Shown here in pieces: positions 21,567 to 43,937 of a stretch of 64,000 bases of DNA. Location: positions 1,921,001 to 1,985,000 of the forward strand of contig NC_009901.1 in assembly GCF_000018285.1 (NCBI RefSeq), written 5' to 3'. Below the pieces are notes generated by a model, which had not been told where the DNA came from, made no database searches, and saw only the letters and a program-made list of their open reading frames with translations. Positions within the stretch are counted from its first letter, which is position 1; each line of letters opens with the position of its first letter. The translations under genes were made by a program, and so were the position numbers. Origin of the DNA: Shewanella pealeana ATCC 700345 (lineage in GTDB: Bacteria; Pseudomonadota; Gammaproteobacteria; Enterobacterales; Shewanellaceae).

Positions 21567-21596
21567 AAAGTCACTCAAATGAGTGGCTTTTTATAT
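21567..21596 (+). terminator. Intrinsic terminator after the tautomerase gene
   Basis: A 10-bp stem (AAAGTCACTC at 21567-21576 with GAGTGGCTTT at 21581-21590, one G-U pair), loop AAAT, then a T-rich tail. An IS remnant begins 17 bp after the stem. Confidence 0.8.
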
Positions 21597-21606
21597 ATTG
21601 AGTGTC

Positions 21607-21740
21607 TGTCCCGTCCTGAGATAAGTTGACACTTTGTAGACTTTATTATGACAACTCAAATCCCTACCCGCATTAAGCGAACACAAGGTGATCATTGCTT
21701 AGGTTTAAAATTGTAGGTGCCGTTGAACAAGGCGATATAC
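21607..21740 (+). mobile_element. Truncated, decayed IS3-family element remnant
   Basis: TGTCCCGTCCTGAGATAAGT begins an end identical over its first 24 bp to the orfA-side end of the IS at 42595-43896. An orfA start at 21648 reads MTTQIPTRIKRTQ, aligning with the orfA at 33963-34361 (MTTPIPARVKRTQ). A stop and a frameshift near 21713 break it, with similarity resuming as GAVEQGDI in another frame. Only the 5' end survives; no second inverted repeat or target duplication was found. Confidence 0.85.
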
Positions 21741-21877
21741 ATTTTCCATAACCAATTGATTGTTTTAGTGGCTTCATTGACTCCCGCTGTATTTCTATCC
21801 ATATTTAATGCTAACTAAATTAGTGGCTAATTGTTCAACAGGTGCTTGAAGCTAACGGATTAAATATTAAGGGATGA

Positions 21878-22606
21878 ATGAAAATGATTCGAATGACAAA
21901 TGTGTGTAAGGGCGGCGGATTTTTAAAGGCAGTCATAGTTATGGGCATACTAGGGTTAACAGCCTGCAGCTCTGAGCCCGCAAGCCTACAACAAGGGCCC
22001 GATGCAGAGATGACCAAAGAGGGTTTAGTCAGAGTCGACCATTCTAAGTTGGACCTCTCTTATGCTCGGCCCGATGTCAACTGGGCTAACTACACTAAGC
22101 TCTATTTTGAGCCAGTTAAAGTCACCAATGATCATCCTGCCGATTACCAACCACCTAAGATAGATAAAAGAGCCGATGGCCTCAATGCAACTTATGAGTT
22201 GCCTCAAGAAGCACTGGCTAAAATGTCAGAGCAGTTTAGCCTAACGGTAAAAGAAGTGTTTAACAGTGAGCAACCATTTGAGCTGGTGGCCCAACCGGGC
22301 CCTAACACCTTAGTCATTGAAGCGGCGGTTACTGACATTCGCCTCAGTGCACCTCTAGAGTCCAGTCGAAGAAGCTTCAGCTCGATGGGGCGTACGTATA
22401 CAGAGAATTCAGGCTCTATGATGTTACTCGCGGTGATTAAAGATGGAGAAACCGGTGAGGTGTTAGCCAAGGCTGCGGACAGAGGGCAAGGGTTTAATCA
22501 GTGGAGTCAAAATACTCAAGTGTTTAACTGGGGCGATGTCAAAACCGTTTACCGCAGTTGGGTGAATGATTTTAAGAACGCTCTTATGAATGCAGGAGCC
22601 GAATAG
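21878..22606 (+). CDS. DUF3313 domain lipoprotein
   Basis: A 242-aa predicted lipoprotein with a lipobox LTAC-S after a hydrophobic signal (residues 16-30). The body matches DUF3313: DLSYARPDVNWANYTKLYFEPVKV near the start, then NTLVIEAAVTDIRLSAP and GETGEVLAKAADR. Function unknown; probably outer-membrane attached. The start is supported by GGGA just upstream. Terminator follows. Confidence 0.85.
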   Translation: MKMIRMTNVCKGGGFLKAVIVMGILGLTACSSEPASLQQGPDAEMTKEGLVRVDHSKLDLSYARPDVNWANYTKLYFEPVKVTNDHPADYQPPKIDKRADGLNATYELPQEALAKMSEQFSLTVKEVFNSEQPFELVAQPGPNTLVIEAAVTDIRLSAPLESSRRSFSSMGRTYTENSGSMMLLAVIKDGETGEVLAKAADRGQGFNQWSQNTQVFNWGDVKTVYRSWVNDFKNALMNAGAE

Positions 22607-22624
22607 AACTCGTAAGGGAAAAAC

Positions 22625-22646
22625 AAAGCGCCAATTAGGCGCTTTT
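22625..22646. terminator. Intrinsic terminator after the DUF3313 lipoprotein
   Basis: AAAGCGCC-aatta-GGCGCTTTT stem-loop; it lies between converging genes and may also serve mnmC. Confidence 0.75.
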
Positions 22647-22700
22647 GGGGTTTATAACTCGGGTTTATAGACTTGAGTGTGAAGGCAGACAAGCTGTGAT

Positions 22701-24626
22701 CTAAACCTCGACACCCACCTCTAGCGCTTTGCCTTTGAGTAGTTTTCGCATCCACATTCTATTAGGGTTGAGTAGTGCCACAAAATCACGACTAATAGGC
22801 ATTAAATCGCCACAAATCTGCGCTGCGAGCGATTCTGCGGCGAGTGGCCCAGAGCTTAAGCCTCGCGAGCCTAATCCTCCCAGCACATACAGACCTTGAT
22901 GAACTGGCGCATTATGGCTTTGCCAGTATTTACGGCTCTGCGGTGTTAACTGATGATCTTGATATAGAGTCATAATTGAGTCGATATCGGGGGCGGGACC
23001 CATCATAGGAGCATGATCGCGGGTTACCATACGTACGCCAACACGAGCGCTATGGCCAGATACATCAATGTCTTCCACCCACTCTTGGCCAACATAACTA
23101 TGTTGAATTTTATGTAAGTTTTCGACCTGCTCATTCGGGCAATAATCAGTATTTGGCGCATTTTTAACGTAGCTTGCGCCTAGGCAATGTAATGTATTGT
23201 TGCTCGGTGTCATATAGCCATGGGCGCACAAAACACTGCTAAGTTTTGAAAGTTTAGCTCGAGAAGGCACATGACTGACTTGACCTCTAAATCCCGTAGC
23301 CTGTAGGTATTGGGTTTGCGGGAATTGAGTTATCGACTTACCGTTAGCAAGGATAAGCGCCTTAAAGGAGCCAAAGCGTTCGGTGTTACTAGTTAGCTCC
23401 CAGCCACCATCCTTGTAGTGAATATCGGTTATTTGTGTATTGAGTTTAAGTGATGCACCAGCAATCGCCTTAGCCTGATTAAATGCCGCTCGGGTAAAGT
23501 CTTGTGGAGACACCCAGCCACCCATAGGGTAGAAAATACCTCCATCATCAATCTTCAATCCAGCAATGCTAGAGGCCTGCTCGGCTGTAATTGCCCGGGC
23601 GATGCTCGGCTGCCAGTTTTGACCATTAATAATCTTAGCCACTCGCTTGCGGCTGCGTTCATCATGCCCGGTGTGCACTACGCCGCACAGGTCAAAATCA
23701 ATTGGGTGTCCTTGCGCTGCTAGGCTCTTGAGTCTTTGTAAGCTAAACAGGTAGGCCTGCTGAAAATACTGGCTTAAGGTGTTGTTATCTGGCGTGAGTA
23801 ACGGATAGATCGCCCCTTGCTTGTTGCCAGAGGCGGCTTGCGCTAGGGCATGGTCTTCACAAAAAAGTGTGACTTGCTGTCCTCGCTCGGCTAAGGATAA
23901 AGCCAAACACGCGCTGGCGACGCCGCCGCCAATAATGGCGATGCCTAGGTTGCTGCATGTTGCATGGGTTGTAACAGCAGCAGAACAGATTGGGTAGGGG
24001 GCTTGCAACGCTCGGCTCTGCGCACGCATCGCGGCTCGTTCTTGAAAACAGATCTCATCGCCGCTCTGTATATTTCCTGGAATGTTGTCAGCATAGCGAT
24101 AAAGCCCCACTTGCTCGGCCTGAGTATAGAGTTCTAGCTGAGAAACTTCGGTAAATGTATCATCAAGGCTGAACTGGGCATCATTTTTACTTAATTTTGC
24201 TAGCTGCCAAAACAGTATTTGCCTTAACTGAGTTTGGTCTGCATCACTTGTAACGTGCCAGCCGTCGACAAAACCATCGTTAACCATAGGCAAAGCCTGC
24301 AGTTGGGTGAGGTATTGGCCGAGATAAAAATCGATAGTGAGTTTGCAATTACTAACGATGACTCGCTGACAGCCTTCTATTGCGGTTAAAGAAATGCTCC
24401 CCTGAGGACATAGCAGTGTCGTTAACTCTTCATTAGCAAGTAAGATACCTGAGGTATCGCTTATATCGACAAACAACTTCAGCGTAAGCTGCTTGTCTTT
24501 ATGGTGAGCGAGTAGAGTTATCAGCTGTTTAAGTTTGGTAATGCTACCTAAACCTAACTGGCCAATGACCACATTTTTAGTGGTTTGACTGTCGATGATC
24601 TGCTTGAGAATTTTACTTACTGTCAT
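22701..24626 (-). CDS. mnmC: MnmC-like tRNA mnm5s2U34 biosynthesis protein with degenerate methyltransferase half
   Basis: The C-terminal FAD oxidoreductase half is intact: dinucleotide motif IAIIGGGVASACLALSLAERG (from residue 229), QAASGNKQGAIYPLLTP, and the C-terminal LGGLGSRGLSSGPLAAE. It removes carboxymethyl from cmnm5s2U34 of tRNA. The N-terminal half should be a SAM methyltransferase, but the GFGTGLNF-type loop reads GQLGLGSITKLKQL (residues 22-35), and of the usual DGFAPAKNPDMW motif only DGF (117-119) remains. It also lacks the first 40 or so residues of the family. Divergent from fabB, the usual arrangement. 641 aa versus 668 in E. coli. Confidence 0.88.
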   Translation of the reverse strand: MTVSKILKQIIDSQTTKNVVIGQLGLGSITKLKQLITLLAHHKDKQLTLKLFVDISDTSGILLANEELTTLLCPQGSISLTAIEGCQRVIVSNCKLTIDFYLGQYLTQLQALPMVNDGFVDGWHVTSDADQTQLRQILFWQLAKLSKNDAQFSLDDTFTEVSQLELYTQAEQVGLYRYADNIPGNIQSGDEICFQERAAMRAQSRALQAPYPICSAAVTTHATCSNLGIAIIGGGVASACLALSLAERGQQVTLFCEDHALAQAASGNKQGAIYPLLTPDNNTLSQYFQQAYLFSLQRLKSLAAQGHPIDFDLCGVVHTGHDERSRKRVAKIINGQNWQPSIARAITAEQASSIAGLKIDDGGIFYPMGGWVSPQDFTRAAFNQAKAIAGASLKLNTQITDIHYKDGGWELTSNTERFGSFKALILANGKSITQFPQTQYLQATGFRGQVSHVPSRAKLSKLSSVLCAHGYMTPSNNTLHCLGASYVKNAPNTDYCPNEQVENLHKIQHSYVGQEWVEDIDVSGHSARVGVRMVTRDHAPMMGPAPDIDSIMTLYQDHQLTPQSRKYWQSHNAPVHQGLYVLGGLGSRGLSSGPLAAESLAAQICGDLMPISRDFVALLNPNRMWMRKLLKGKALEVGVEV

Positions 24627-24856
24627 GGTTACGTCTTTAATGTTAAATTAAGCACTCACAAATATGCTTTATAATCGGTTTTACTTGCGGAAATTGTACA
24701 TTTTTATGGGCATATTTTGGCAAAGATTATACGTAAGGTCTCATAATGAGCATTATTTTTGTGTTCCTTATGGAAAGCTGACCACTTAAATGGATGAAAA
24801 GCGATACCATTGGTGCAGCAAAATTGGTACTAGATGTACAAAATGGAAAGTTAATA

Positions 24857-26068
24857 ATGAAAAGAGTCGTGATCACTGGACTTGGTGTCGTATCAAGTAT
24901 CGGTAACAACAAGCAAGAAGTCACTGAATCATTAAAAGCGGGTCGTAGTGGTATTACCCACTCTGATCAGTTTGAAGAAATGAAGCTGCGTAGTCATGTT
25001 TGGGGCGACATTAAGATTGACCCATCAGAATATATTGACCGTAAAGCACTGCGCTTTATGGGTAATGCAGCAGCTTACGCACATATCGCAATGCAAGAAG
25101 CGATTAAAGATGCAGGTTTAGTTGAAGAGCAGTATTCAGACCCTCGTGTCGGTATTATCGTAGGCTCGGGCGGCGCATCTTCAGCAAATCAGGTTCAAGC
25201 TGCTGACACGTTACGTGAAAAAGGCGTTAAGCGCGTTGGTCCATATATTGTGCCGCGTATTATGTCGAGCACAGCAAGCGCATGTTTGGCTACGCCATTT
25301 AAGATTAAAGGCATGAACTACTCAATCAGTTCTGCTTGTGCAACTAGCGCACACTGTATCGGCCACGCGGCTGAACTTATCCAGATGGGTAAGCAAGATA
25401 TGGTATTTGCTGGTGGTGCAGAAGAAGTGGATTGGACGCTTACCATGGGCTTCGATGCTATGGGCGCACTATCGACTAAGTTTAATGATGATCCCACTAA
25501 AGCATCTCGTACCTATGATGCAGACCGTGATGGTTTTGTTATCTCTGGTGGCGGCGGAATCGTGGTTGTTGAAGAGCTAGAACACGCTCTTGCACGTGGC
25601 GCAAAAATCTACGCTGAGATCATCGGTTATGGCGCATCATCAGACGGCTATGACATGGTTGCTCCATCAGGTGAAGGTGCGGTTCGCTGTATGCAGATGG
25701 CTCTTGCCGATGTAGACACACCAATCGATTACATCAATACTCACGGTACATCAACACCTGTGGGTGATATGCGTGAGCTTGAAGCACTACGTGAAACCTT
25801 TGGTGATAACCTACCAGCTATCGCATCGACTAAGTCTCTAACGGGTCATGCACTGGGCGCGGCGGGTGCACACGAAGCGATTTATAGCTTGATCATGATG
25901 GAAAGTAGTTTCATCGCACCAAGCATCAACATTGATACTGTCGATGAAAAAGCCGAAGGCATGCCAATTGTGACTAAAATGACTGAAAAAGAGCTCAATA
26001 CTGTGATGAGCAACAGTTTTGGTTTTGGTGGCACAAACGCAACTTTGGTTATGCGTAAGTACAAGTAA
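24857..26068 (+). CDS. fabB: 3-oxoacyl-[acyl-carrier-protein] synthase I
   Basis: Beta-ketoacyl-ACP synthase I, the elongating enzyme needed for unsaturated fatty acid synthesis. The active-site Cys161 lies in [12 protein letters not shown]; the two His motifs are [10 protein letters not shown] and [11 protein letters not shown], and the glycine tail [13 protein letters not shown] closes the protein. 403 aa from the ATG at 24857 ([13 protein letters not shown], the conserved start); the frame extends upstream to 24794 but that part is not conserved-looking. Confidence 0.97.
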
Positions 26069-26098
26069 ACTGTACTTATACTCAGCAAAGATAGATTG

Positions 26099-26125
26099 AA
26101 AAGGAAGCCTAGGCTTCCTTTTTTT
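26099..26125. terminator. Intrinsic terminator after fabB
   Basis: A perfect 20-bp palindrome (AAGGAAGCCT/AGGCTTCCTT) followed by seven T residues. Confidence 0.88.
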
Positions 26126-26206
26126 GTGTCTTGTTTTGCTGTCCAGCCCCAATTGACAGGATCCCTTCTATAGTTAGTTTGTAATAAATTATATAGGAGA
26201 GAGCAA

Positions 26207-26566
26207 ATGCATTTAGCAGATATAGTGCAACGTGGCTGGCAAGCCGTCGGTGCCGGAGATTTTGACACCTTGGTGGCTGACTACGTTGAGAATATGTCAT
26301 TCATCATGCCGGGGCAAAACGATGTACTTGAGGGGCGACAGGCTTTTCGTAGTGCGCTGGACTCTCTTGGTCAAATTCTTCCCCCTGGTTTTGAAATTAC
26401 ACAGCTTCATCAGATAGAAGGAGAGAATGAAGTGGTTTCAATCCTTGAGTGGAAATCCAATAAAATAGCGGGATCTCAACTGTGTGTTTTGTTTAAGTTC
26501 GAAGCGAGTAAAATCTACGAAGAAAGGTGGTTCGTAGACACTGAGCAGTGGAAGAATGCTTTCTAA
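26207..26566 (+). CDS. SnoaL-like / NTF2-fold protein
   Basis: A 119-aa protein resembling the SnoaL-like polyketide-cyclase/NTF2 superfamily: GWQAVGAGDFDTLVADYVENMSFIMPGQNDVLEGRQAFRSAL, then a beta-rich C-terminus ending EERWFVDTEQWKNAF. Such proteins bind small hydrophobic ligands; no activity can be assigned. Strong AGGAGAG ribosome site. It sits after the fabB terminator and is transcribed separately. Confidence 0.7.
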   Translation: MHLADIVQRGWQAVGAGDFDTLVADYVENMSFIMPGQNDVLEGRQAFRSALDSLGQILPPGFEITQLHQIEGENEVVSILEWKSNKIAGSQLCVLFKFEASKIYEERWFVDTEQWKNAF

Positions 26567-26712
26567 AACAGTCAAAAATGTGCGCTAAAATCAAGTTAAA
26601 ACAAGAATTAATCAAAAGTGCTGATGCTCAGTTATCGCCGTCTGTTGTATTAGTTTCGTTGTATTAGCTCTACTTTATTTGGCGGCTTTAGTCGTTCAAA
26701 TGTATCGATTGC

Positions 26713-27666
26713 TTACTTCCAAGGAAGCGGGGTTAGTCGCTGTTTGAGGAGCTGAATAAAGCCAGAAATACGAGCCGAACGTTCTTTCTCTGGACTACTT
26801 AATAACGCAACTATATTGGCGTTCGGTAGTGAATAATCGGCTAATATACGCACAAGTTCACCGTTGTTGATCTGCGGCTGCACATCCCACTCAGATCGCA
26901 TAATGACGCCTAACCCTGCCATAGCCCAATCTTTAATGACGCGGCCCTCGTTGCTTGCCAGTGTCGGCGTGATCCTGATCATTTCAAGTTTGTCATCGGT
27001 TGGCTTGTCGTTGGAAAGCTTGTCATGTGACAATTTCTCATGTAACAGCTTGGTAAACGGCCACAAGGTCACATCTTCGTTGTTTTCCCTTAATGCGATG
27101 CATCGATGTTTGAGTAGCTCTTGAGGCTCCTTTGGTTCTCCCATTTGCTCAAGGTATTTTGGGGAGGCACAGACAAATCTTTGGTTTTTAGCCAAAGTTA
27201 TCATTTTCAATGAGGAATCATTGAGCGCACCTATATAGATAATGATGTCCCATTTATGATGACTAGACCAATTGGGGTTATCGGATAACTCAAGTTCGAT
27301 ATCTAGCTGAGGATGTAGGAGCTTGTATTCGCCAAGCAAGGGCGCGATATAATCATTACCAAAACCTAAGGGGGCTAATACTCTCAGCTTGCCACAAACA
27401 TGCTCCTTAAGCTCATCCAGCTGTTCTTGTAGTTCATCGAGTCCACGCAGAATAGGCAAGCCTTTATCCAGTAAAAGTTGTCCTTCTTCCGTTAGGCTCA
27501 CGACTCTTGAGGGGCGCTGAATAAGTTTGATCGACAGTTTTTTTTCAATATGTTGCAATCTAAGCGTTACCGACGGCGGAGTAATATTTAACGTCCTAGC
27601 CGCATCGGCTAGGGTTTTATGGCTGGCGATTGTGGTGATGAATCTTAGATCTTCTGTGGTGATCAT
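26713..27666 (-). CDS. LysR family transcriptional regulator
   Basis: A 317-aa LTTR. The N-terminal winged HTH is TIASHKTLADAARTLNITPPSVTLRLQHIEKKLSIKLIQR, followed by a periplasmic-binding-like effector domain. Divergent from the aldolase/cyclodeaminase pair across a 144-bp gap, so it probably controls them. Unusual: the effector domain contains a low-complexity stretch HEKLSHDKLSNDKPTDDKLE encoded by four 15-bp repeats (26983-27042). Confidence 0.9.
   Translation of the reverse strand: MITTEDLRFITTIASHKTLADAARTLNITPPSVTLRLQHIEKKLSIKLIQRPSRVVSLTEEGQLLLDKGLPILRGLDELQEQLDELKEHVCGKLRVLAPLGFGNDYIAPLLGEYKLLHPQLDIELELSDNPNWSSHHKWDIIIYIGALNDSSLKMITLAKNQRFVCASPKYLEQMGEPKEPQELLKHRCIALRENNEDVTLWPFTKLLHEKLSHDKLSNDKPTDDKLEMIRITPTLASNEGRVIKDWAMAGLGVIMRSEWDVQPQINNGELVRILADYSLPNANIVALLSSPEKERSARISGFIQLLKQRLTPLPWK
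26983..27042 (-). repeat. 15-bp tandem repeat inside the LysR gene
   Basis: Four in-frame decayed units (27042-27028, 27027-27013, 27012-26998, 26997-26983), each encoding x-D/E-K-L/P-x. They insert about 20 charged residues into the effector domain. Confidence 0.75.
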
Positions 27667-27810
27667 TTAGTTTTAACCTAATCTATACCTTAATAAGTAT
27701 TAATGTAAAACAAAACAAACTTCTTGGATACTCTTGTTCTACACGCTGGTTTGATATTGCTCACGTGCATCAATCCAGATATGACCTATTGATGGATCAG
27801 GAAAATGATC

Positions 27811-28977: not shown

Positions 28978-28978
28978 C

Positions 28979-29920: not shown

Positions 29921-29931
29921 TATTAAGGTCA

Positions 29932-29961
29932 AAGGGCCAGTAGCAATTGCTGCTGGCCTTT
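29932..29961 (+). terminator. Intrinsic terminator after the cyclodeaminase-like gene
   Basis: GCCAGTAGC-aatt-GCTGCTGGC stem flanked by A/G and CTTT runs. Confidence 0.75.
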
Positions 29962-30140
29962 ATTGTTCATGAATCCTCCGAAAGCTAACATGGAAGAGAC
30001 TAACTCCCACATTGATACTCTCCTTTATCTGGTTACACCTGACTACAATGATTAAGCCTAGATTAATGAGCAAAAATTACTGCTTAAAATGATTGACGCA
30101 GGAGTAAAAGTGAACTGTTTTGGCCTGATTTATTTACTTG

Positions 30141-30922: not shown

Positions 30923-32053
30923 ATGAAGATCCTTGCCGATGAAAATATGCCTTATGTTCAACAGTTATTTGGTGACTTAGGCACGATTGAAACCGTAAAC
31001 GGTAGGGAGCTAACGCCTGAGCAAGTTAACGATGCCGATGTGTTACTCGTTCGCTCTGTGACTAAGGTGAATCAAGCCTTATTGGCAGAGAATAACCAAC
31101 TTAAGTTTGTTGGCAGTGCCACCATAGGCACAGATCATATCGATGTTGAATACCTTGCAAGTCGCAATATTCCCTTCTCTAATGCGCCGGGCTGTAACGC
31201 CACCGCTGTGGGGGAGTTTGCCTTTATCGCCATGCTTGAGCTTGCACAGCGCTTTAATAGCCCGCTAAAAGGCAAGGTGGTTGGTATTGTTGGTGCTGGC
31301 AACACTGGCACAGCGGTAGCTAAATGCCTTGAGGCTTATGGCATTGAAGTTCTGCTTAATGACCCATTGTTAGAAGAGAGTGGCGATCCTCGTAGCTTTG
31401 TATCACTCGATACCTTAATCGAAAAGTGCGATGTGATTAGCTTGCATGTACCGATAACTAAAACCGGTGAGCATAAAACTTGGTATCTGTTCGATGAGTC
31501 GAGACTTAATAAGCTAGCTGAAAACTGCTGGCTGCTTAATTGCTGCCGGGGCGAGGTGATTGATAACTGCGCCTTGATTAACTTCAAGCAACAGCGAGAT
31601 GATGTAAAAGTGGTGCTTGATGTGTGGGAAGGTGAGCCTAATCCTATGCCAGAGTTGGTGCCTTATGTGGAGTTTTGTACGCCCCATATCGCTGGCTACT
31701 CGTTAGAGGGCAAAGCGCGCGGCACCTATATGCTCTATCAAAAGTTAGCTGAGGTGCTGAAGATTGAGGCCGACAAACAGATGGACTCGTTACTGCCGCC
31801 GCTCTGGAGTGAGCAGGTTAACGTACAAGAAATCAGCGATGAAAGAGCACTTTTGCAGCTCGCGAGATTTGTATACAATTTGCGCGATGATGACGAATTA
31901 TTTCGAAAAATGTTTCTAAATAAGCAGGGGTTTGATCATATGAGAAAAAATCACACCCATCGCCGCGAATTTAGTGCATTAAAGGTAGGCAACACGGGGC
32001 AAACTAATGTAAATTGGTTATCCAATTTAGGGTTTTCAGGAGTCGAGCTGTAA
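30923..32053 (+). CDS. pdxB: Erythronate-4-phosphate dehydrogenase
   Basis: NAD-dependent D-2-hydroxyacid dehydrogenase of the DXP-dependent pyridoxal phosphate pathway. The start [16 protein letters not shown] is the family hallmark. The NAD loop is [15 protein letters not shown], the catalytic Arg is in [10 protein letters not shown] and the His in CTPHIAGYS. 376 aa from the second of two adjacent ATGs. It sits just before asd, the same neighbourhood as pdxB-usg in E. coli. The C-terminal region [14 protein letters not shown] fits the PdxB dimerisation domain. Confidence 0.96.
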
Positions 32054-32055
32054 TT

Positions 32056-33072
32056 ATGTCGCAGGAATTTAATGTTGTCGTATTAGGTGCATCGGGCGCA
32101 GTGGGTCAAACAATGATTGAGATCCTCGAAGAGCGTAACTTTCCGGTTGCTAATTTATTTCCATTAGCCAGCAGTCGCAGCGCCGGTAATACGGTCAGCT
32201 TCCACGGTAAACAGGTCGAAATTTTAGATGTAGACACCTTTGACTGGTCACAGGCCCAAATCGGTTTCTTCTCTGCAGGTGGTGACGTATCAGCTAAATG
32301 GGCTCCCATTGCTGCTGAAAACGGTTGTGTTGTTATCGATAACACCTCTCACTTCAGATATGACATCGACGTGCCATTGGTGATCCCAGAGGTAAACCCT
32401 GAAGCGATTGCCGATTTCAGAAACCGTAACATCATTGCTAACCCTAACTGTTCAACCATTCAGATGTTGGTTGCGCTTAAGCCTATTTATGATGCATACG
32501 GTATTTCGCGTATTAACGTGGCGACTTACCAGTCTGTATCGGGATCGGGTAAGCAAGCTATTGAAGAGTTAGCAGGCCAGTGCGCTAAGCTTTTACAAGG
32601 TTTACCTGTAGAGCCTAAGACTTATCCTAAGCAAATTGCGTTTAACGTATTGCCACAAATCGATAAGTTTATGGATAACGGCTACACCAAAGAAGAGATG
32701 AAAATGGTGTGGGAAACGCAGAAGATCTTTGGTGATGACAACATCGTTGTGAACCCAACGGCTGTGCGTGTACCAGTATTTTACGGTCACTCAGAAGCTA
32801 TTCACCTAGAGACATTACAACCTGCTGATGCCGAAGACATTAAATCCGTATTACGTGGTGCCGACGGTGTAGAACTATTCGAAGGTGATGAAGATTACCC
32901 AACTGCGATAACAGAAGGCGCAGGTACCGATCCTGTTTATGTTGGTCGTGTGAGAAAAGATATCTCCCATGAGAATGGCATAAACCTTTGGGTTGTATCA
33001 GATAACATTCGTAAAGGCGCAGCACTTAACAGTGTGCAAATCGCTGAAGTTTTGATTAGAGATTATTATTAA
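32056..33072 (+). CDS. asd: Aspartate-semialdehyde dehydrogenase
   Basis: Reduces aspartyl phosphate to aspartate semialdehyde for Lys/Thr/Met/diaminopimelate synthesis. 338 aa with the NADP loop VLGASGAVGQTM, active-site Cys132 in NPNCSTIQ, and the VRVPVFYGHSEA segment. This is the position of E. coli usg, a homologue lacking the catalytic Cys; here the Cys is present, so an active enzyme is expected. The ATG is 2 nt after the pdxB stop. An IS3-family element begins 22 bp after its stop, separating it from its native terminator. Confidence 0.95.
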   Translation: MSQEFNVVVLGASGAVGQTMIEILEERNFPVANLFPLASSRSAGNTVSFHGKQVEILDVDTFDWSQAQIGFFSAGGDVSAKWAPIAAENGCVVIDNTSHFRYDIDVPLVIPEVNPEAIADFRNRNIIANPNCSTIQMLVALKPIYDAYGISRINVATYQSVSGSGKQAIEELAGQCAKLLQGLPVEPKTYPKQIAFNVLPQIDKFMDNGYTKEEMKMVWETQKIFGDDNIVVNPTAVRVPVFYGHSEAIHLETLQPADAEDIKSVLRGADGVELFEGDEDYPTAITEGAGTDPVYVGRVRKDISHENGINLWVVSDNIRKGAALNSVQIAEVLIRDYY

Positions 33073-33126
33073 TTTCTAGTTCGAACCGACTAAGTGTCCC
33101 GTCCTGAAATAGGTTGACGGTTTTTA

Positions 33127-33936
33127 CTAGACCAGTAGCTTCTGCTGCTGGTCTTTTTTATGCACTTGATTAGGTGTTTTCATACCCAAGCTTAAGTGCG
33201 GTCTCAGCTCATTGTATATAAAAATTGACTCCTCAACGAGTTGCTTTAACTCATTAAGGTTGCAGCAAGGAGATAATAGAAACTCTTGCTTTAATATCCC
33301 ATTTATACGTTCTGCTAGTGCGTTTTGGTAGCAGTCATATCCATCGGTCATTGATGCGCGGATGTCACTTCTTTGCAACGCTAACTGATAAACGGCAGAG
33401 CAATACTGTAACCCTCTGTCTGAGTGATGCACTGCTCGATGTTGATACTGCCGATTACTTATCGTCATTTCTAACGCTTTGACTACGTCTGTAGCTTTCA
33501 TTTCATTACTTAATTCATATCCCATTATTTTACGACTGAACGCGTCAGTTACCAATGATAGATAATGTATGCCTTGCTCTGATTGCACATATGTTATATC
33601 ACTAACAAACACCTCTTCAGGTGCTGTTGGCACTAACTCTTTCAGTAAATTTGGATGTTTCTTCATCCAATGTTTACTGTTAGTCGTCTTGGTATAATTA
33701 CGCTTAGGTTTGACTAACAAGCCTTCACTTTTCAAGTAACTAAAGAAGTTATCGCGCCCAAGTTTAATCCCTTTCTCGATGAACTTAGGTTTAAGTAAAA
33801 AGTAGAGTTTCTTGCCACCAATCCGAGGCATAAACCGACGGATATCTAGTATCATCGCTCTTACAGGGGCTAACTCCATTGCTCTACAATTCGCTCTTCG
33901 TTCTCTTTGATAGATAGCTTGTCTTGTTATACCCAG
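33127..33936 (-). CDS. IS3-family transposase OrfB (DDE integrase domain)
   Basis: The catalytic half of the transposase. DDE residues are in VSDITYV, HHSDRGLQY and NALAERINGILKQE. The first ATG is at 33879, but the -1 frame is open further upstream and reads SLNRACKLLGITRQAIYQRE, the normal OrfB N-terminal HTH, overlapping the end of orfA. The product is therefore probably made as an OrfAB fusion by -1 frameshifting near the A-rich stretch at about 33965-33975. The upstream coordinate given is approximate. Confidence 0.88.
   Translation of the reverse strand: MGITRQAIYQRERRANCRAMELAPVRAMILDIRRFMPRIGGKKLYFLLKPKFIEKGIKLGRDNFFSYLKSEGLLVKPKRNYTKTTNSKHWMKKHPNLLKELVPTAPEEVFVSDITYVQSEQGIHYLSLVTDAFSRKIMGYELSNEMKATDVVKALEMTISNRQYQHRAVHHSDRGLQYCSAVYQLALQRSDIRASMTDGYDCYQNALAERINGILKQEFLLSPCCNLNELKQLVEESIFIYNELRPHLSLGMKTPNQVHKKDQQQKLLV
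33129..33154. terminator. Intrinsic terminator carried inside the IS (orfB end)
   Basis: AGACCAGTAGC-ttct-GCTGCTGGTCT, an 11-bp stem with one G-U pair and a T-run on the plus side (A/T-rich on both sides). It can stop asd transcripts on the plus strand. Confidence 0.8.
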
Positions 33937-33962
33937 AAGCTTACAAGCGCGATTTAAGCTCG

Positions 33963-34361
33963 TTACTTTCTGTTTTTGAAGACTTCTCGCTCCCTGGCTA
34001 AGTACTTTTTTCTAAGGCCAGCTCCATATTCTGCATCAATAATATCAACGGCTTCATTGAGTAATAGATTACGTAAGTGCTCATCTTCCAGCTCTTTTTC
34101 AAGGCGCTTAATCTTTTGAGCTGGGGTTTCTTTAGCTTTAGTTGTTTTTGGCATAGTCATTCTCACTGGTTGAGTCCAGTCCATCTTACCGTGCTTTCTA
34201 AGCCAAGTAAGTACCGTGGAGCGACCTTGGATGCCATAGGTTGTTTGAGCTTGTTTATAAGTCATATCGCCTTTTTCTACGGCAGCTACAACTTGTAATT
34301 TAAAGCCTAACGAATAATCTCGCTGTGTTCGCTTAACGCGGGCTGGTATTGGTGTAGTCAT
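33963..34361 (-). CDS. IS3-family transposase OrfA (HTH)
   Basis: A 132-aa DNA-binding half: KRTQRDYSLGFKLQVVAAVEKGDMTYKQAQTTYGIQGRSTVLTWLRKHG is the HTH, followed by a leucine-zipper-like coiled coil KIKRLEKELEDEHLRNLLLNEAVDII. Its 3' end overlaps orfB in the -1 frame. Confidence 0.9.
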   Translation of the reverse strand: MTTPIPARVKRTQRDYSLGFKLQVVAAVEKGDMTYKQAQTTYGIQGRSTVLTWLRKHGKMDWTQPVRMTMPKTTKAKETPAQKIKRLEKELEDEHLRNLLLNEAVDIIDAEYGAGLRKKYLAREREVFKNRK

Positions 34362-34413
34362 TATAAAGTCCTAAATGTGTAAACACATTTCAGGACAAGA
34401 CAAAGAAAACATA

Positions 34414-34440
34414 AAAAGCCCGCTAATTGCGGGCTTTTTA
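34414..34440. terminator. Bidirectional terminator palindrome next to the first IS
   Basis: AAAAAGCCCGC-taatt-GCGGGCTTTTT. It is probably the native asd terminator, now cut off from asd by the 1.3-kb IS. Confidence 0.85.
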
Positions 34441-34519
34441 TGTTTTAAAGATGTGAACAGTAGCAGGGCAACAGAATCTAGTTTATAGTAATCTCAATAA
34501 ATACAATTGCCTAAAGCTC

Positions 34520-34536
34520 GTCACCAGGGTGGTGAC
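34520..34536 (+). other. Small hairpin upstream of fimV
   Basis: GTCACC-AGGGT-GGTGAC, a 6-bp perfect stem 28 bp before the fimV ATG. It could affect translation or be a protein site; no assignment. Confidence 0.35.
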
Positions 34537-34563
34537 TCCAGAGTGCTTTAAAGGGAAGGATTG

Positions 34564-37437
<2,874 letters not shown>

Positions 37438-37454
37438 ATTCCTCAACTAAAATC

Positions 37455-37476
37455 GGCGCCTTTGGCGCCTTTTTTA
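37455..37476 (+). terminator. Intrinsic terminator after fimV
   Basis: GGCGCC-TTT-GGCGCC followed by six T residues. Confidence 0.85.
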
Positions 37477-37600
37477 TACTTATCGTTTGCCTTGAGTATG
37501 CTAGAATCGCCGGCTATTAAAAGATTTTGTCTATCCGACTGCATTGCCTTGAAAACACAGGCAGTCGAATAACAGTTTAACTGAGTTATAGAGGTGTGGA

Positions 37601-38386
37601 ATGCGGGTTGCGCTAGGTATAGAGTACGATGGTAGTCAATATTTCGGATGGCAACGTCAGGCGGAAGTTGACACAGTGCAAGAGCGATTAGAAAAAGCGC
37701 TTTCTATTGTTGCCAACGAACCTATTGCAGTGCACTGTGCTGGCCGAACTGATGCGGGCGTCCACGCGACAGGTCAAGTGGTTCACTTTGAAACCAATGC
37801 GATTAGAAAAGAGACGGCTTGGACACTAGGCGTCAATGTTAACCTGCCTGACAATATTGCTGTGCGCTGGGTTAAAGTCGTTGATGATGAATTTCACGCA
37901 CGTTTTACTGCTACGGCAAGACGTTATCGCTATATGATTTACAATCACCAGCTTCGTCCAGGCATTTTGCGTAGCGGTGTCAGTCATTACCCAGGTGATA
38001 TCGACGAGTCTAAGATGCATCAAGCCGCGCAGTACCTTCTCGGTGAGCAGGATTTTACTAGTTTTAGAGCTGTTCATTGTCAGTCTAATACGCCGTTTCG
38101 CTGCGTGCATGAAGTTAACGTGACGCGTCAAGGGATGTATATCTGTGTCGATATTAAGGCTAATGCTTTCTTACATCACATGGTGCGCAATATTGTAGGC
38201 TCTCTGTTGGAAGTCGGTTTAGGTAATCAGTCTGTCGAGTGGATTGAACAGCTACTGGCGCTTAAAGACAGAAATAAAGCCGCAGCAACTGCCAAGCCTA
38301 ACGGCTTGTATTTAGTGGACGTGACTTACCCTGAAAGCTACCAATTGCCTAAGTTGTCACTTGGCCCATTATTTATGTTGGACTAA
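37601..38386 (+). CDS. truA: tRNA pseudouridine(38-40) synthase
   Basis: Makes pseudouridine at tRNA positions 38-40. The catalytic Asp is in [16 protein letters not shown], the N-terminus [20 protein letters not shown] is the family signature, and [21 protein letters not shown] lies near the C-terminus. 261 aa. In E. coli and, as I recall, in other Shewanella, accD follows this gene before folC; here folC follows directly after 76 bp. Confidence 0.96.
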
Positions 38387-38421
38387 GGCATGTTTAATGA
38401 GAGTTAAGGATAATCTTAACG

Positions 38422-38446
38422 GTAAAGGTTTGGGCCTTTACGTTTT
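38422..38446 (+). terminator. Weak intrinsic terminator between truA and folC
   Basis: GTAAAGG-tttggg-CCTTTAC stem followed by GTTTTAAAT. Low GC content makes it weak. Confidence 0.5.
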
Positions 38447-38462
38447 AAATGGATAAAAGTTT

Positions 38463-39749
38463 GTGATTGAACAAGACACATTAATGCCAGTAGCACCAAA
38501 GTCAGGTGCTACGTTAAACCGCTGGTTAGATTTCTTATTGGCAATTCACCCAACTGAAATTGATATGGGACTTGCACGGGTATCAACTGTCGCTACTAGA
38601 ATGGAATTGAACCATTTAGGCGAAACCAAAATAGTCACTGTTGCAGGCACTAATGGTAAAGGCACTACCTGCGCCATGATCGAAGCTGCGTTACAGCTAT
38701 CAGGGAAAACGGTAGGCGTATACAGTTCACCGCATTTACTGAACTACAATGAGCGCGTGCGGATTAATGGTATTGATGCTACTGATACAGCTTTAGTCGG
38801 TGCCTTCGAAGCCATTGAAGCTGCTCGAGCCGAGATCTCATTAACCTTCTTTGAGTACGCAACGCTAGCTGGTCTTTATCTCTTTAAAGCTGCCAAGCTT
38901 GATGTGGTATTACTCGAGGTAGGTTTAGGTGGTCGCTTAGACGCAACCAACTTAATCGATGCAGATATTGCAGTCGTGACTTCTATCGATCTTGACCATC
39001 AAGAGTACCTTGGTGATACGCGAGAGTTGGTTGGCGCAGAAAAAGCAGGAATATTTAGACAAGGGCGCCCTGCAATTGTAGGTGAGCCTGATTGTCCACA
39101 ATCGGTACTTGATGCGGCCAATCGAGTCGGTGCATCGCTTTATCGAGTTAATAGTGAGTTTAGCTACCAGTGCACTAACGAGGATTGGCATTTCAAAGGT
39201 CAGCATTTCGATTTATCGCATTTGCCACTGCCATATTTGCCTCAACCTAATGCCGCCACAGTTATTGCGGTACTAGAGCACCTTTTTCCAACTATTTCCG
39301 CCGAAATTATTGCTAAAGCCGTCGGTAACACTCAGCTCGCTGGACGTTTAGAAACTCTTAATCCGTCACCTAAAGTTATAGTCGATGTCGCCCATAATCC
39401 TCACGCTGCACGTTATTTAAAATCACGTTTAGCTGCGATGGTAAAAGGGCGTTTATTTGCACTTTGTGGCATGTTAAAAGATAAAGATGCTCGCTCGGTA
39501 CTACTTGAGCTATCAAGTGATGTTGATAAGTGGTTTTTATGCGACTTATCGGTCCCACGTGGCGCATCGGCAGCAGAGTTAAACGCACTAATGCCGCAAG
39601 ATGTAGACGCTGCCACTTATCAGCAGATGAGCGATGCTTGGCAAGCGATCAAAGCGCAATTGCACAGCGATGATATCGTTATTGTATTTGGCTCATTTTA
39701 CACTGTTGCGGGTTTTAAAGAGTTGTTTAAGGGAGAGAAACTTGTCTAG
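38463..39749 (+). CDS. folC: Folylpolyglutamate synthase / dihydrofolate synthase
   Basis: Mur-ligase-fold enzyme adding glutamate to dihydropteroate and to folates. The P-loop is TVAGTNGKGTTCAMIEAAL, then SSPHLLNYNERVRING, LLEVGLGGRLDATNLID, and VDVAHNPHAARYL in the C-terminal domain. 428 aa from a GTG start; an in-frame ATG seven codons later is possible, though its upstream sequence is no better. Ends inside the dedD start. Confidence 0.95.
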   Translation: MIEQDTLMPVAPKSGATLNRWLDFLLAIHPTEIDMGLARVSTVATRMELNHLGETKIVTVAGTNGKGTTCAMIEAALQLSGKTVGVYSSPHLLNYNERVRINGIDATDTALVGAFEAIEAARAEISLTFFEYATLAGLYLFKAAKLDVVLLEVGLGGRLDATNLIDADIAVVTSIDLDHQEYLGDTRELVGAEKAGIFRQGRPAIVGEPDCPQSVLDAANRVGASLYRVNSEFSYQCTNEDWHFKGQHFDLSHLPLPYLPQPNAATVIAVLEHLFPTISAEIIAKAVGNTQLAGRLETLNPSPKVIVDVAHNPHAARYLKSRLAAMVKGRLFALCGMLKDKDARSVLLELSSDVDKWFLCDLSVPRGASAAELNALMPQDVDAATYQQMSDAWQAIKAQLHSDDIVIVFGSFYTVAGFKELFKGEKLV

Positions 39750-40371
39750 TCAATTTCAAAACCGTCTTGTTGGTGTCATCGTGATTGTGGCATTAGGGGT
39801 GATTTTTTTACCCGATATATTAGATGGTAAAAAGCAGCGAGAAGAAGAGCAGTTTGCTGAAATACCTTTGAGACCCGAGATCCAAGAGAGCACCTTGCCA
39901 GCTCAGAAAATTGAAACGGTCGATCTTGCTGTGAACGATGGTTCAAACGCTGATGGCGCTTCATTGGATAACGCCACTCATTCTGGCGATGAGGAACGTT
40001 CCGGTAATGGCGATCGTTCCGGTGATGCCTCTTGGCACATAGCCGAAGAGGGCGGGCAGCCAACAAAGCCGCAACAGTCAAAGCCTGCAGTTAAGTCGGT
40101 AACTAAACCGGCACTTGAATTAAAGAACGCTTGGACGATTCAACTTGGCAGCTTTAATAATGCAGCCAACGTTAGAGGGTTAGTTAAACGCCTTCGCGAT
40201 AATGGATTTACCGCCTATACCTTGCCGACTAAACCCGTCGATGGTCAGTTAACTAAGGTATTTGTTGGGCCTAACGTTTCTAAAGATAAGTTGAGCCGTA
40301 TGCAGAATGATATTGAAAAGCTGACGCAGCTAAAAGGTCGTGTAGTTACTTATAGCCCTGTCGAAAAATAA
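39742..40371 (+). CDS. dedD: DedD-like SPOR domain cell-division protein
   Basis: Small membrane-anchored division protein (209 aa): N-terminal segment RLVGVIVIVALGVIFLPDIL, a Pro/Ser/Gly-rich periplasmic linker, and a C-terminal SPOR domain (WTIQLGSFNNAANVRGLVKRLRDNGFTAYTLP...KVFVGPNVSKDKLSRMQNDI) that binds denuded septal peptidoglycan. Start is the TTG at 39742 behind GGGAGAG, overlapping folC by 8 bp; the longer upstream frame lies wholly within folC. The linker holds a short GDxERSGNGDRSGD duplication. Confidence 0.9.
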   Translation: MSSQFQNRLVGVIVIVALGVIFLPDILDGKKQREEEQFAEIPLRPEIQESTLPAQKIETVDLAVNDGSNADGASLDNATHSGDEERSGNGDRSGDASWHIAEEGGQPTKPQQSKPAVKSVTKPALELKNAWTIQLGSFNNAANVRGLVKRLRDNGFTAYTLPTKPVDGQLTKVFVGPNVSKDKLSRMQNDIEKLTQLKGRVVTYSPVEK

Positions 40372-40486
40372 TAAATCGTGATTGTCTTTGTTTGAGAAAA
40401 AGTTATTTCGCCGTGAAAGCGTGAGAAATAACTCTGTCTCTGTTAGAATCGCGCCGTCTTAAACCCTATGCTGGATTATCTCTTAA

Positions 40487-40975
40487 ATGGTTTGGATTGA
40501 TTACGCCATCATTATCGTTATCGGACTATCAACTTTGATCAGTTTGGTCCGTGGTTTTGTAAAAGAAGCCATGTCTCTCGTTGTTTGGTTCGCCGCTTTT
40601 TTTATTGCCAGCCAGTTTTACCTCAAACTCGCCTTGCATCTTACCCAGATGCAAGATGAAATGGTTCGAAATGGGGTCGCAATTGCCATTTTGTTCGTTT
40701 CAACGCTTATTCTAGGCGCTCTCGTTAATTACCTAATAGGTCAATTGGTTTCTAAAACAGGATTGTCAGGCACTGATAGAGTGCTCGGCTTGTGTTTTGG
40801 TGCCCTTAGAGGCGCATTAATCGTAAGCGCGTTACTGTTTTTTATGGATGCTTTTACCGGAGCACCCAACACAGATTGGTGGCAGGATTCTACACTCGTG
40901 CCCGAATTTGGAGTTGTGATCCAGTGGTTCTTTGACTACTTGGAAAACACCTCGAGCTTTGTACCCAAAATATAA
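40487..40975 (+). CDS. cvpA: CvpA family membrane protein
   Basis: A 162-aa inner-membrane protein with four predicted membrane segments and the CvpA motifs WIDYAIIIVIGLSTLISLVRGFVKEAMSLVVW and GLSGTDRVLGLCFGALRGALIV. Linked to colicin V production and envelope stress in E. coli; precise function unsettled. Upstream of purF as in most gammaproteobacteria. Confidence 0.93.
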   Translation: MVWIDYAIIIVIGLSTLISLVRGFVKEAMSLVVWFAAFFIASQFYLKLALHLTQMQDEMVRNGVAIAILFVSTLILGALVNYLIGQLVSKTGLSGTDRVLGLCFGALRGALIVSALLFFMDAFTGAPNTDWWQDSTLVPEFGVVIQWFFDYLENTSSFVPKI

Positions 40976-41074
40976 AATGCACTAAAGCATTACTTGGTTT
41001 TAGGTAGAGACGTCAGTCTCACCTAAAGCAAAAATATTAAATAATAGAACATCTTACAATGAGGAAGCTTACCC

Positions 41075-42589
41075 ATGTGTGGTATTGTCGGAATAGTTGG
41101 CCAGTCATCGGTTAATCAAACCATTTATGATGCACTGACTGTGCTCCAGCATCGTGGACAGGATGCTGCTGGCATTGTGACCGTCGATGGCAGCGCGTTT
41201 AGATTGCGTAAAGCCAATGGTTTGGTGAAAGACGTTTTTGAACCAAAGCATATGCAGCGTCTACAAGGCAATGCAGGCATAGGTCACGTTCGTTACCCTA
41301 CGGCAGGAAGCTCTAGCGCTTCTGAAGCTCAGCCGTTTTATGTTAACTCTCCTTTTGGTATTTCATTGGCGCACAATGGTAACTTGACCAATACGGTTGA
41401 GCTGCATGAGCGTTTATTGAAGCAGCGCCGTCATGTTAATACCACATCAGACTCTGAAGTGTTACTTAACTTACTCGCCGATGAACTTCAGCAATCTACA
41501 ACAGATGATCTTAGCGCTGAAGATGTGTTTAATGCTGTTGCCAAGGTGCATGATATTACTCGTGGTGCCTATGCGGTAGCTGCCATGATTATCGGCCAAG
41601 GGCTAGTTGCTTTTAGAGATCCATTTGGTATTCGTCCGTTAGTGCTAGGTAAGCATGAAACGGCGTCAGGCACCGAATACATGATCGCATCTGAAAGCGT
41701 TGCGTTAGATGCGGTGGGTTTTGAGTTTATGCGTGACGTAGCGCCTGGTGAGGCGGTTTATATTACCCTTGATGGTGAGCTATATACTCGCCAATGCGCA
41801 CACTCGCCAAGCTACTCTCCTTGTATCTTTGAATTCGTATATTTTGCTCGTCCTGACTCAACCATTGATAACATTTCTGTTTATAGCAGCCGTGTTAATA
41901 TGGGCACCATGTTGGGCGAAAAAATTAAGAGAGAGTGGGAAGATCATGATATCGATGTAGTTATCCCGATCCCTGAAACCTCTTGCGATATCGCACTCGA
42001 AATTGCACGTCATATGGATCTGCCATACCGTCAGGGCTTCGTTAAAAATCGCTATATCGGCCGTACTTTTATCATGCCAGGTCAGCAAGAGCGTAAGAAG
42101 TCTGTACGCCGTAAGCTCAACGCGATTGGTGCAGAGTTTAAAGGCAAGAACGTATTACTTGTTGATGACTCTATTGTGCGTGGTACCACGTCTGAGCAGA
42201 TCATCGAGATGGCACGTGATGCTGGCGCTAATAAAGTGTATTTCGCGTCAGCAGCACCAGAAATTCGTTTCCCGAATGTGTACGGTATCGATATGCCAAC
42301 CACAAATGAACTCATTGCCCATGGACGCGATGTTGAAGAGATCAATAACTTAATCGGCGCCGACGGCATGATTTTCCAATCGCTACCGGATTTAATTGAA
42401 GCGGTACGTAAAGAAAATCCAAGTATTAAGCGTTTTGAAACCTCTGTATTTGACGGTAAGTACGTCACCAATGACGTAAATCAAGAGTACTTAGATTACA
42501 TTACACAATTGCGTAACGATGATGCTAAGGCAAATCGTAGCAAAGATATTGGCACTAACTTAGAGATGCATAACGTCTGTCATCCTTAA
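41075..42589 (+). CDS. purF: Amidophosphoribosyltransferase
   Basis: First committed step of purine synthesis: PRPP plus glutamine to phosphoribosylamine. Catalytic Cys2 follows Met1 (MCGIVGIVG), with no propeptide. The glutaminase domain shows [20 protein letters not shown] and LAHNGNL; the PRPP loop is [14 protein letters not shown]. 504 aa. Good AGGAAG ribosome site. An IS3-family element starts 5 bp after its stop codon, separating it from the terminator at 43911-43937. Confidence 0.97.
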
Positions 42590-42626
42590 GCAAGTGTCTA
42601 GTCCTAAAATAGGTTGACGGTTTTTA

Positions 42627-43441
42627 TTAAGCCAGTTGGAACTCCCGACTGGCTTTTTTATGTACTTCATTAGGGGTTTTCATCCCTAAACTAAGATGCG
42701 GCCTTAAATGGTTATAAGTCTCTATCGACTCTTTGATTAACATATCGAGCTCCTTCATCGTACGGCAGCGATAAAGCAAAAACTCGTGCTTCAAAATCCC
42801 ATTAACCCGCTCTGCAAGTGCATTTTGGTAGCAGTCATATCCATCTGTCATGGACGGAGTAATACCATTTGCCGCTAACGTCTCCTGGTACTCAGCTGAG
42901 CAGTACTGCATCCCTCTATCTGAGTGGTGAATGGCATCGCCTGTTGTCTGACGATTCTTTATCGTCATATTCAATGCTTTGACCACGTCACAAGCTTTCA
43001 TTTCATGGCTTAACTCATATCCCATTATCTTTCTTGAGTACGCATCTGTTACCAGAGACAAATAGTGCGTCCCCTCATCTGATTTCACGTAGGTGATATC
43101 GCTAACGAGCACCTCTTCAACACGCTTGACCGCTCTGTCTTTTAGTAAGTTGGGATACTTTCTTAGCCAGTGATGGCTATTGGTCGTTTTAGTGTAATTT
43201 TTTCTGGGTTTTACCAGCATATTTTGTTGCTTCAAATACTGAAATAACCCATCTCTACCGAGCTTTATCCCTTGTTCTATCAGTTGTGGCTTGATGAGCT
43301 GGTAGAGCTTGCGCGTCCCCACTCTAGGCATAAACTGGCGCCAATACATGACCATCTTCATCACAGGTTTAAGCGTTTCAGCTTTTGCCGTTCTGCGTTG
43401 TTTCCATTGATAAATTGCTTGTCTAGATAAGTTGAACTGCC
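42627..43441 (-). CDS. IS3-family transposase OrfB (second IS)
   Basis: DDE integrase domain: VSDITYVKSDEGTHYLSLVTDAYSR, HHSDRGMQYCSAEY and NALAERVNGILKHEFLL. The first start codon in frame is a GTG at 43364, but the frame is open upstream and reads LSRQAIYQWKQRRTAKAE, so it probably continues from orfA by -1 frameshifting. The upstream coordinate is approximate. The sequence is clearly homologous to the first IS but with many substitutions. Confidence 0.87.
42629..42655. terminator. Intrinsic terminator carried inside the second IS
   Basis: AAGCCAGT (42629-42636) pairs with ACTGGCTT (42648-42655), then a T-run on the plus side. It is at the same relative place as in the first IS and can stop purF transcripts. 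Confidence 0.75.
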
Positions 43442-43471
43442 GACTCGCTGTGGCTAACTTTATGGTGCCTT

Positions 43472-43855
43472 TTACTTTGGCGAACCAGAGCGTTCGGCTA
43501 AGTACTTTTTTTCTAAATCGATGCCGTATTCGTTTTTAAGCAACTCGACCATATCGCCATAAATCATGTTTTTCATTTCTAGATTAGAGACTTGCTTCTC
43601 CAATCGCTTAATTTTCTGGGCTGGCGTTTCTTTAGATTTAGACATAGGAGAGTGCTCAATAGGCTGGGACCAGTCTAATCTACCATGCTTTCGTAACCAT
43701 GTAAGGACGGTACTTCTTCCTTGGATACCATAGTGGTCTTGAGCTTGCTTATAGGTCAGCTCGCCTTTTTCTACTTGGCTGACGACGGCTAATTTAAAGC
43801 CTAATGTGTAATCACGCTGAGTACGTTTATTGCTGATAGAACCTGAAGGTTTCAT
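43472..43855 (-). CDS. IS3-family transposase OrfA (second IS)
   Basis: A 127-aa HTH protein (KRTQRDYTLGFKLAVVSQVEKGELTYKQAQDHYGIQGRSTVLTWLRKHG) with a coiled coil KIKRLEKQVSNLEMKNMIYGDMVELL. It aligns along its whole length with the other OrfA. Confidence 0.9.
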   Translation of the reverse strand: MKPSGSISNKRTQRDYTLGFKLAVVSQVEKGELTYKQAQDHYGIQGRSTVLTWLRKHGRLDWSQPIEHSPMSKSKETPAQKIKRLEKQVSNLEMKNMIYGDMVELLKNEYGIDLEKKYLAERSGSPK

Positions 43856-43910
43856 AGATAAGTCTCCAATGTGTCAACTTATCTCAGGACGGGACAAAGT
43901 TGTTATGTTT

Positions 43911-43937
43911 AAAAGCCGAGCATCTGCTCGGCTTTTT
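43911..43937. terminator. Terminator palindrome next to the second IS
   Basis: AAAAGCCGAGCA-tc-TGCTCGGCTTTTTT. It is probably the native purF terminator, displaced by the IS. Confidence 0.85.

Follow-up and report, generated by a model that had tools for sequence, protein, structure and literature searches.

This analysis concerns a group of insertion sequences (IS) of the IS3 family that are inserted beside transcription terminators. In Shewanella pealeana ATCC 700345, a stretch of 64,000 nucleotides (hereafter the window; positions 1921001-1985000 of the single-contig genome of 5174581 bases) contains two intact elements, designated type A and type B, and, from another element of the same clade, a remnant of the left end (Table 1). 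The association of the orfA end of these elements with terminators is real, strongly non-random and lineage-wide. According to the reading preferred here, to which a probability of roughly 0.8 is assigned as a whole, the transposase would pick its site by reading, in double-stranded DNA, the junction at which the GC-rich part of the terminator gives way to its T-run, at a spacing set by a lineage-specific ruler of the protein. Where an insertion separates a gene from its terminator, a hairpin at the element's right end would take over termination in place of the displaced one. This would amount to a mutual insulation, in which insertions miss genes and a host or element hairpin stands between the neighboring genes and the transposase genes.

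A search of the genome for the integrase-core family returned 21 matches, i.e., ten copies of type A (302-aa open frame) and eleven of type B (294 aa), which, aligned to the window copies, have lengths of 1302 and 1308 bp, respectively, and are at least 99.8% identical within each type. According to Pfam and NCBIfam, both types encode an IS3-family DDE (rve) transposase, with scores of 238.9 (A) and 231.8 bits (B) for the IS3 family model NF033516 (NCBIfam), exceeding its cut-off of 160, and the type A protein is 89% identical to a transposase named ISShfr4 family. All 21 copies feature terminal inverted repeats of the form 5'-TG...CA and a 3-bp duplication. Both types consist of two frames, orfA and orfB, with an A6G run at their junction, and ISSen1-like relatives are annotated with a programmed frameshift. 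As types A and B share only about 71-80% identity in alignable segments, the two window copies do not result from one recent duplication, as the original prediction had stated. The near-identical copies within each type suggest recent activity of two clade elements in one genome. An Rfam scan of window positions 33000-44500 gave nothing at gathering score, and an AlphaFold model of the ISShfr4 transposase was poor (mean predicted local distance difference test score 57, predicted template modeling score 0.34) and was not used.

A flank was scored as positive if it had a stem of 5 or more pairs closed by GC, followed by 7 positions with 4 or more T, and if the stem ended 10-22 nt away from the insertion. 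The left (orfA-side) flank passed this criterion in 21/21 copies and the right flank in 1/21, and the intergenic background in 400 kb of this genome amounted to 3623 of 145712 position-and-strand tests (2.5%), which excludes chance genome-wide. Without exception, the terminator-like hairpin lies 14-18 bp outside the orfA end, with its T-run pointing toward the element and in a single orientation. Likewise, RNAfold gave a mean of -18.8 kcal/mol for the 40-nt left flanks, compared to -5.5 for the right flanks and -5.0 for 3000 random intergenic positions. The target stem sequences vary between the sites, and the 3-bp duplication separates hairpin and element. In the window, 15 nt (type B) and 18 nt (type A) lie between the orfA end and the stem, and 19 nt separate the stem from the remnant; thus the coordinates, spacings and common orientation of all three traces at terminator palindromes, as described originally, proved to be accurate. 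The AAG duplication noted for two of the three flanks both intact copies on either side, at 33092-33094 and 34403-34405 (type B) and at 42592-42594 and 43897-43899 (type A). The remnant aligns to the left end of type B with 74.8% identity over 139 columns and to that of type A with 73.6% over 106. By eye, all four left-end remnants listed for the genome, including that of the window, are situated behind a hairpin. At a further locus (L107, near C1:508137), two clade left-end fragments lie adjacent to each other behind a single terminator, as if the site had been reused or rearranged.

The same arrangement extends beyond this genome. From the matches listed in 60 genomes of the genus, 47 further clade copies (at least about 48% identity) were taken, of which 41 passed the criterion; fragments and matches at contig edges (most of G022, G031, G026:C69, and G032:C1) were left unscored and L155 was unused. 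In a second set, drawn from named genomes, the best 80 of 589 loci comprised 14 without recognizable ends and 3 with less than 50 bp of left flank, and 54 of the 63 scored copies passed, 18 of the 63 coming from a single Salinivibrio genome (15 of these passed). One site is present in both collections (L113 and L203). Members of the named-genome set include Gammaproteobacteria (Photobacterium, Vibrio, Salinivibrio, Pseudoalteromonas, and Microbulbifer), Kiloniella (Alphaproteobacteria), a Desulfobulbaceae genome (Desulfobacterota), and Bacteroidota (Tenacibaculum, Aquimarina, Maribacter, and Roseivirga). The comparison set beforehand, of the orfA flank with controls and, in S. pealeana, with the other end, came out as anticipated. 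The use of terminator hairpins by an IS3 lineage is supported, and this lineage is much wider than the genus initially considered. A hairpin was assigned in 24 of the 30 copies entered from a plasmid set and from a branch at about 50% identity to which the Salmonella element ISSen1 belongs; L336, L338, and L341 were omitted from the comparison of hairpin lengths, L338 being a G088 copy that lacks a clear terminator. The branch is uncommon; at E 1e-40, matches were obtained in 6 of 299 genomes from the phylum, S. pealeana included. Other IS3 elements of the genus were flanked by a hairpin in only 1 of 39 copies (L180). In a tree of 61 transposases, the 43 clade rows fell on one side of a branch with a support of 100/100; the labels were assigned by clade after inspection of the flanks and are thus not fully independent, long branches were flagged, and a few rows feature a poor hairpin, e.g., a Bernardetia plasmid copy. 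Judged from these sequences, the terminator association marks one IS3-family clade among those sampled, which spans several phyla.

The elements also bring a predicted terminator of their own, a claim of the original prediction that is borne out at the sequence level. Read inward, a hairpin followed by a T-run was found in 71 of 75 distinct right ends, mostly 30-77 bp inside the element, and in the opposite direction the same criterion was reached by 14/75. Counting pairs in 18 like-spaced rows of 28 aligned, stem pairing reached 85.5% of cells, exceeding both the shuffled (69.6%) and the slid controls (24-48%). Changes on both sides were counted in 29 cells vs. 8.6 in the shuffles. Pairing above the controls together with such compensatory changes indicates a structure that is maintained while its sequence changes. 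This right-end hairpin is predicted to function as a terminator. In the order gene, element, terminator, it would stop the transcript of the gene within about 60 bp of its entry into the element, and in any arrangement it would shield the transposase genes from antisense transcription. Two solo right-end remnants of 65-69 bp in the same genome (L104, C1:4616102-4616166, and L106, 3147844-3147912) still contain their hairpin and were possibly kept as terminators.

Which property of the terminator is read can be narrowed down by features of the targets. An A-run on the far side of the stem (at least 5 of 7) occurs at 19/21 targets of S. pealeana, in comparison to 37% of 177 terminators taken from this genome as background; over all genomes it was found in 79% of 122 copies, a figure which mixes many genomes, so that the comparison rests on the 21 copies and their own background. 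Junctions between a GC-rich part and a T-run number 416 in 400 kb of intergenic DNA, and a stem is present at 89 of them (21%). Junction and stem coincided in 11/11 copies of type B and 8/10 of type A. If the junction sufficed, a stem in all eleven type B copies would be improbable (0.214^11), and thus the hairpin or a second half-site matters. To sample the ISSen1 branch, 13 of the 920 E. coli records matching ISSen1 were reduced to 11 by removing the duplicates L376 and L377, and plasmid copies L359 and L360 were added. These 13 distinct sites are from E. coli, Salmonella, and Citrobacter. Element and junction are 13-15 bp apart at 12 of them, a stem was detected by script at 5 and by eye at one more (L373, a large-loop terminator behind feoC), and several copies are located inside genes, annotated as, e.g., hsdR, trbJ, and flk. 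Elements of this kind in E. coli (L366-L378) are also found behind topA, feoC, and aspC, and L372 is the sole site without the junction among the 11 distinct E. coli sites examined. The G036 copies L150-L153, whose transposase groups with that of the terminator-targeting G024/G045 elements and three of which touch predicted open reading frames (ORFs), represent a natural relaxed variant. The GC-to-T-run junction is likely the core signal, as far as can be judged from these sites, with the palindrome as a probable second requirement in the main clade.

Types A and B differ in how the distance to the target is kept. The stem base lies 14-15 nt from the element in all 11 type B copies and 16-18 nt in all 10 type A copies of the genome. 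For type B, the near distance is 14.2 +/- 0.4 over hairpins of 14-22 nt, and it hardly changes when close kin are included (19 copies; 14.1 +/- 0.5, hairpins of 14-25 nt, slope -0.07). For type A and close kin (19 copies), it decreases from 18 to 12 as the hairpins lengthen from 16 to 25 nt, with a slope of -0.67 (95% bootstrap -0.79 to -0.44), and the difference between both slopes was matched by none of 5000 permutations. Since the near distance of type A shrinks with hairpin length, its insertion point tracks the far base or the middle of the hairpin. Slopes of -0.03 to -0.24, leaning toward a near ruler, were obtained for Salinivibrio, the G005/G036/G039 group, the 50% branch, and the remaining named copies, and five Vibrio copies deviate from these groups with a slope of -0.98. 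In agreement with this, the position profile of type B is sharpest at the near-side GGCTTTTTT and that of type A at the far A-run. We infer that type B uses the near half-site, and type A the far half-site or the hairpin middle.

Several observations weigh against parts of this reading. The flank criterion was failed by 6/47 genus copies and 9/63 named-genome copies; five of the latter (L205, L223, L226, L249, and L251) were still given a hairpin in a separate assignment, and L236, L274, L278, and L281 were not. At the right ends, pairs with changes on both sides exceed the shuffles only weakly (7 vs. 4.6, with 23 of 500 shuffles reaching 7). The strict near-junction motif is missed by 2 of the 10 type A copies. 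The spacing of type A is tightest when measured from the hairpin middle (standard deviation 0.79) and not from the far base (1.02), so that a pure far ruler is not claimed, and within the ten copies of the genome the slope is merely -0.44, with the near distance being no looser than the far one. Moreover, 7-8 of the 13 ISSen1-like sites have no clear hairpin, nor do the four G036 copies, although these lie at T-run junctions. Hence, the hairpin is not strictly needed in the ISSen1 branch. A pure-hairpin rule is rejected for this branch, in which the junction spacing is kept without a hairpin; the hairpin proposed as target stands for the main clade, and for the ISSen1 branch the junction is enough and the hairpin optional.

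These sites also bear on the alternative that the protein recognizes structure, i.e., that it binds an extruded or bent palindrome (hairpin or cruciform) and the flanking runs merely aid melting. The frequent coincidence of junction and stem, well above that at intergenic junctions, and the enrichment of symmetric A-stem-T targets fit such a mode of recognition. Nevertheless, the ISSen1-like and G036 copies use stemless junctions at about equal distance, and in type B most of the positional information resides in the T-run junction, which leaves recognition of structure as a tentative explanation, less likely than reading of the junction by the transposase.

The gene context was determined for the 129 copies whose flanks were long enough, including 8 without an assigned hairpin, and is based on ORFs of at least 300 nt instead of annotation. 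Of the 121 hairpin-bearing copies, 78 are situated between convergent genes, 25 follow a terminator in a tandem arrangement, 17 separate a gene from the terminator, and 1 is between divergent genes; with the hairpin-less copies added, these numbers become 79, 26, 21, and 3. Both window copies lie between the stop codon of a gene and the terminator of that gene. In IS-free relatives, a hairpin with T-run directly follows the gene in 14/14 cases at each window site, as judged by eye. The idea of a terminator as safe harbor is thus only half the story: the elements do lie beside terminators, but those of the window are upstream of the gene's terminator and not behind it. A rule based on the direction of transcription was unsupported by the gene context, with elements on either side of terminators.

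The use of both sides, together with the hairpin directly after the gene in IS-free relatives, argues against guidance by a terminating polymerase. Guidance of the transposase by a polymerase pausing on the terminator, or by the hairpin in the RNA, would explain why every target in S. pealeana is a terminator-like hairpin, and the insertion point would lie roughly at the front of a polymerase stopped on the T-run. Nevertheless, tandem copies with a hairpin occur on both sides of the terminator (25 vs. 17), both window copies lie upstream of it, hairpin-less ISSen1-like copies within genes keep the same spacing, and the near distance of type A varies with hairpin length. Transcription of a palindromic terminator from both strands, or antisense transcription, could rescue this explanation, which is regarded as unlikely. 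Direct recognition of DNA is the likelier mode in view of the elements on either side of terminators and the hairpin-less ISSen1-like copies inside genes.

Selection alone, by which random insertions would survive only at gene ends, is in line with the position of most copies just past stop codons and between convergent genes, where the least harm is done. Still, survival cannot fix a 14-15 bp spacing and a single polarity, no such signal is seen at the right flank, other IS3 elements of the genus hardly ever have the hairpin, and the junction is retained even by ISSen1-like copies located within genes; the fixed spacing refutes selection as sole cause, and the explanation is considered highly improbable. 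That the hairpin is the outer part of the element's left end, as its presence next to nearly every copy might imply, is refuted by stems differing between sites, the duplication lying between hairpin and element, and the hairpin without element in all IS-free relatives, and has practically no probability left.

Thus, position, polarity, 3-bp duplications, type-specific spacing, clade restriction, the hairpin of IS-free sites, and the right-end hairpin are features of the sequences themselves, and a DNA-level recognition by the transposase and a terminator function of host and element hairpins are inferred from them.

Table 1. Elements, remnant and adjoining terminator hairpins, with positions counted from the first letter of the window.
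Feature	Position	Strand	Remarks
Left-end remnant, third element of the clade	21607..21738	+	Alignment to type A/B left ends
Predicted terminator stem before the remnant	21570..21587	+	19 nt before remnant; downstream of ORF 21164-21508
Type B IS3-family IS, intact	33095..34402	-	1308 bp; ends and length from 11 aligned copies
Type B orfB (DDE transposase), from first start codon	33127..33879	-	Pfam rve and rve_3; NCBIfam transpos_IS3, 231.8 bits
Type B orfA	33963..34361	-	A6G at 34005-34011, likely frameshift site
Type B right-end hairpin and T-run, inward, antisense to transposase; predicted terminator	33129..33159	+	Covariation
Type B target, predicted intrinsic terminator stem of gene 32014-33072	34418..34434	+	A-run and T-run flanks
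Type A IS3-family IS (ISShfr4-like), intact	42595..43896	-	1302 bp; aligned copies
Type A orfB (DDE transposase)	42627..43364	-	Pfam rve; transpos_IS3, 238.9 bits
Type A orfA	43472..43855	-	A6G at 43505-43511
Type A right-end hairpin and T-run, inward; predicted terminator	42630..42659	+	Covariation
Type A target, predicted intrinsic terminator stem of gene 41075-42589	43915..43932	+	Hairpin criterion

The site choice of DDE insertion sequences is mostly thought to be weak or regional. The target of the present clade is a functional genetic sign instead of a fixed sequence, in a lineage distributed over several phyla and active-looking in S. pealeana. The more general statement, that a cross-phylum DDE clade has a transposase reading the DNA signature of terminators with lineage-specific rulers and swaps the terminators it displaces, is given slightly better than even odds. 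With most copies placed next to predicted stop hairpins, and with a further predicted one inside the element, the host is likely little harmed by an insertion. The recognition of terminators by a small transposase becomes testable by means of natural variants, namely two rulers as well as hairpin-associated and hairpin-optional branches. In addition, landing sites in genomes and plasmids become predictable, which offers a naturally gene-sparing insertion tool, and some genes in these genomes would end on a terminator supplied by an IS.

In an open-licence library, no earlier description of terminator targeting by IS3 elements was found, a weak indication of absence with subscription papers and ISfinder notes outside its scope. 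ISShfr4 and ISSen1, which belong to the clade by their transposases (89 and about 50% identity to type A, respectively), are known as sequences, and no statement on terminator targeting by them was found in the same library. Among well-known elements, Tn7 inserts at the glmS terminator (attTn7), where a dedicated protein reads the end of the glmS coding region. Harmless insertion just past a gene and in fixed orientation is common to Tn7 and the clade, with one site for Tn7 and many unrelated terminators for the clade. The ISAjo2 group of the IS1202 family inserts at dif/pdif sites on the XerC side, 5 bp away and with a 5-bp duplication (PMC10132070). It resembles the clade in its fixed distance and single orientation beside a host site, with a specificity thought to reside in the transposase. 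Nevertheless, the ISAjo2 transposase of 441-457 aa belongs to another IS family, and the IS3 transposase, 3-bp duplication, and terminator target of the clade place it outside the IS1202/ISAjo2 elements.

Two systems are closer. For the IS3-family elements IS1397 and ISKpn1, the transposase was held responsible for choosing repetitive extragenic palindromic (REP), or palindromic-unit, targets (PMC1525189). Like these, the clade comprises IS3-family elements at extragenic palindromes. However, IS1397 and ISKpn1 insert within a repeated REP family, whereas the stems used by the clade are unrelated between sites, the insertion lies 14-18 bp outside the hairpin, and a predicted terminator is carried along. 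Class C (group IIC) introns insert after intrinsic terminators and also need intron-binding sequences (PMC3522654). They share intrinsic terminators as targets and a fixed polarity with the clade. Still, a group IIC intron is a retroelement located downstream of the terminator, whereas the clade consists of DDE transposons with 3-bp duplications on either side of terminators; with an encoded DDE transposase and the Rfam scan of the window region given above, its elements are no group IIC introns. The clade is therefore like group IIC introns in the type of its target and like IS1397 as a palindrome-seeking IS3 lineage, but with respect to its target it belongs to neither class.

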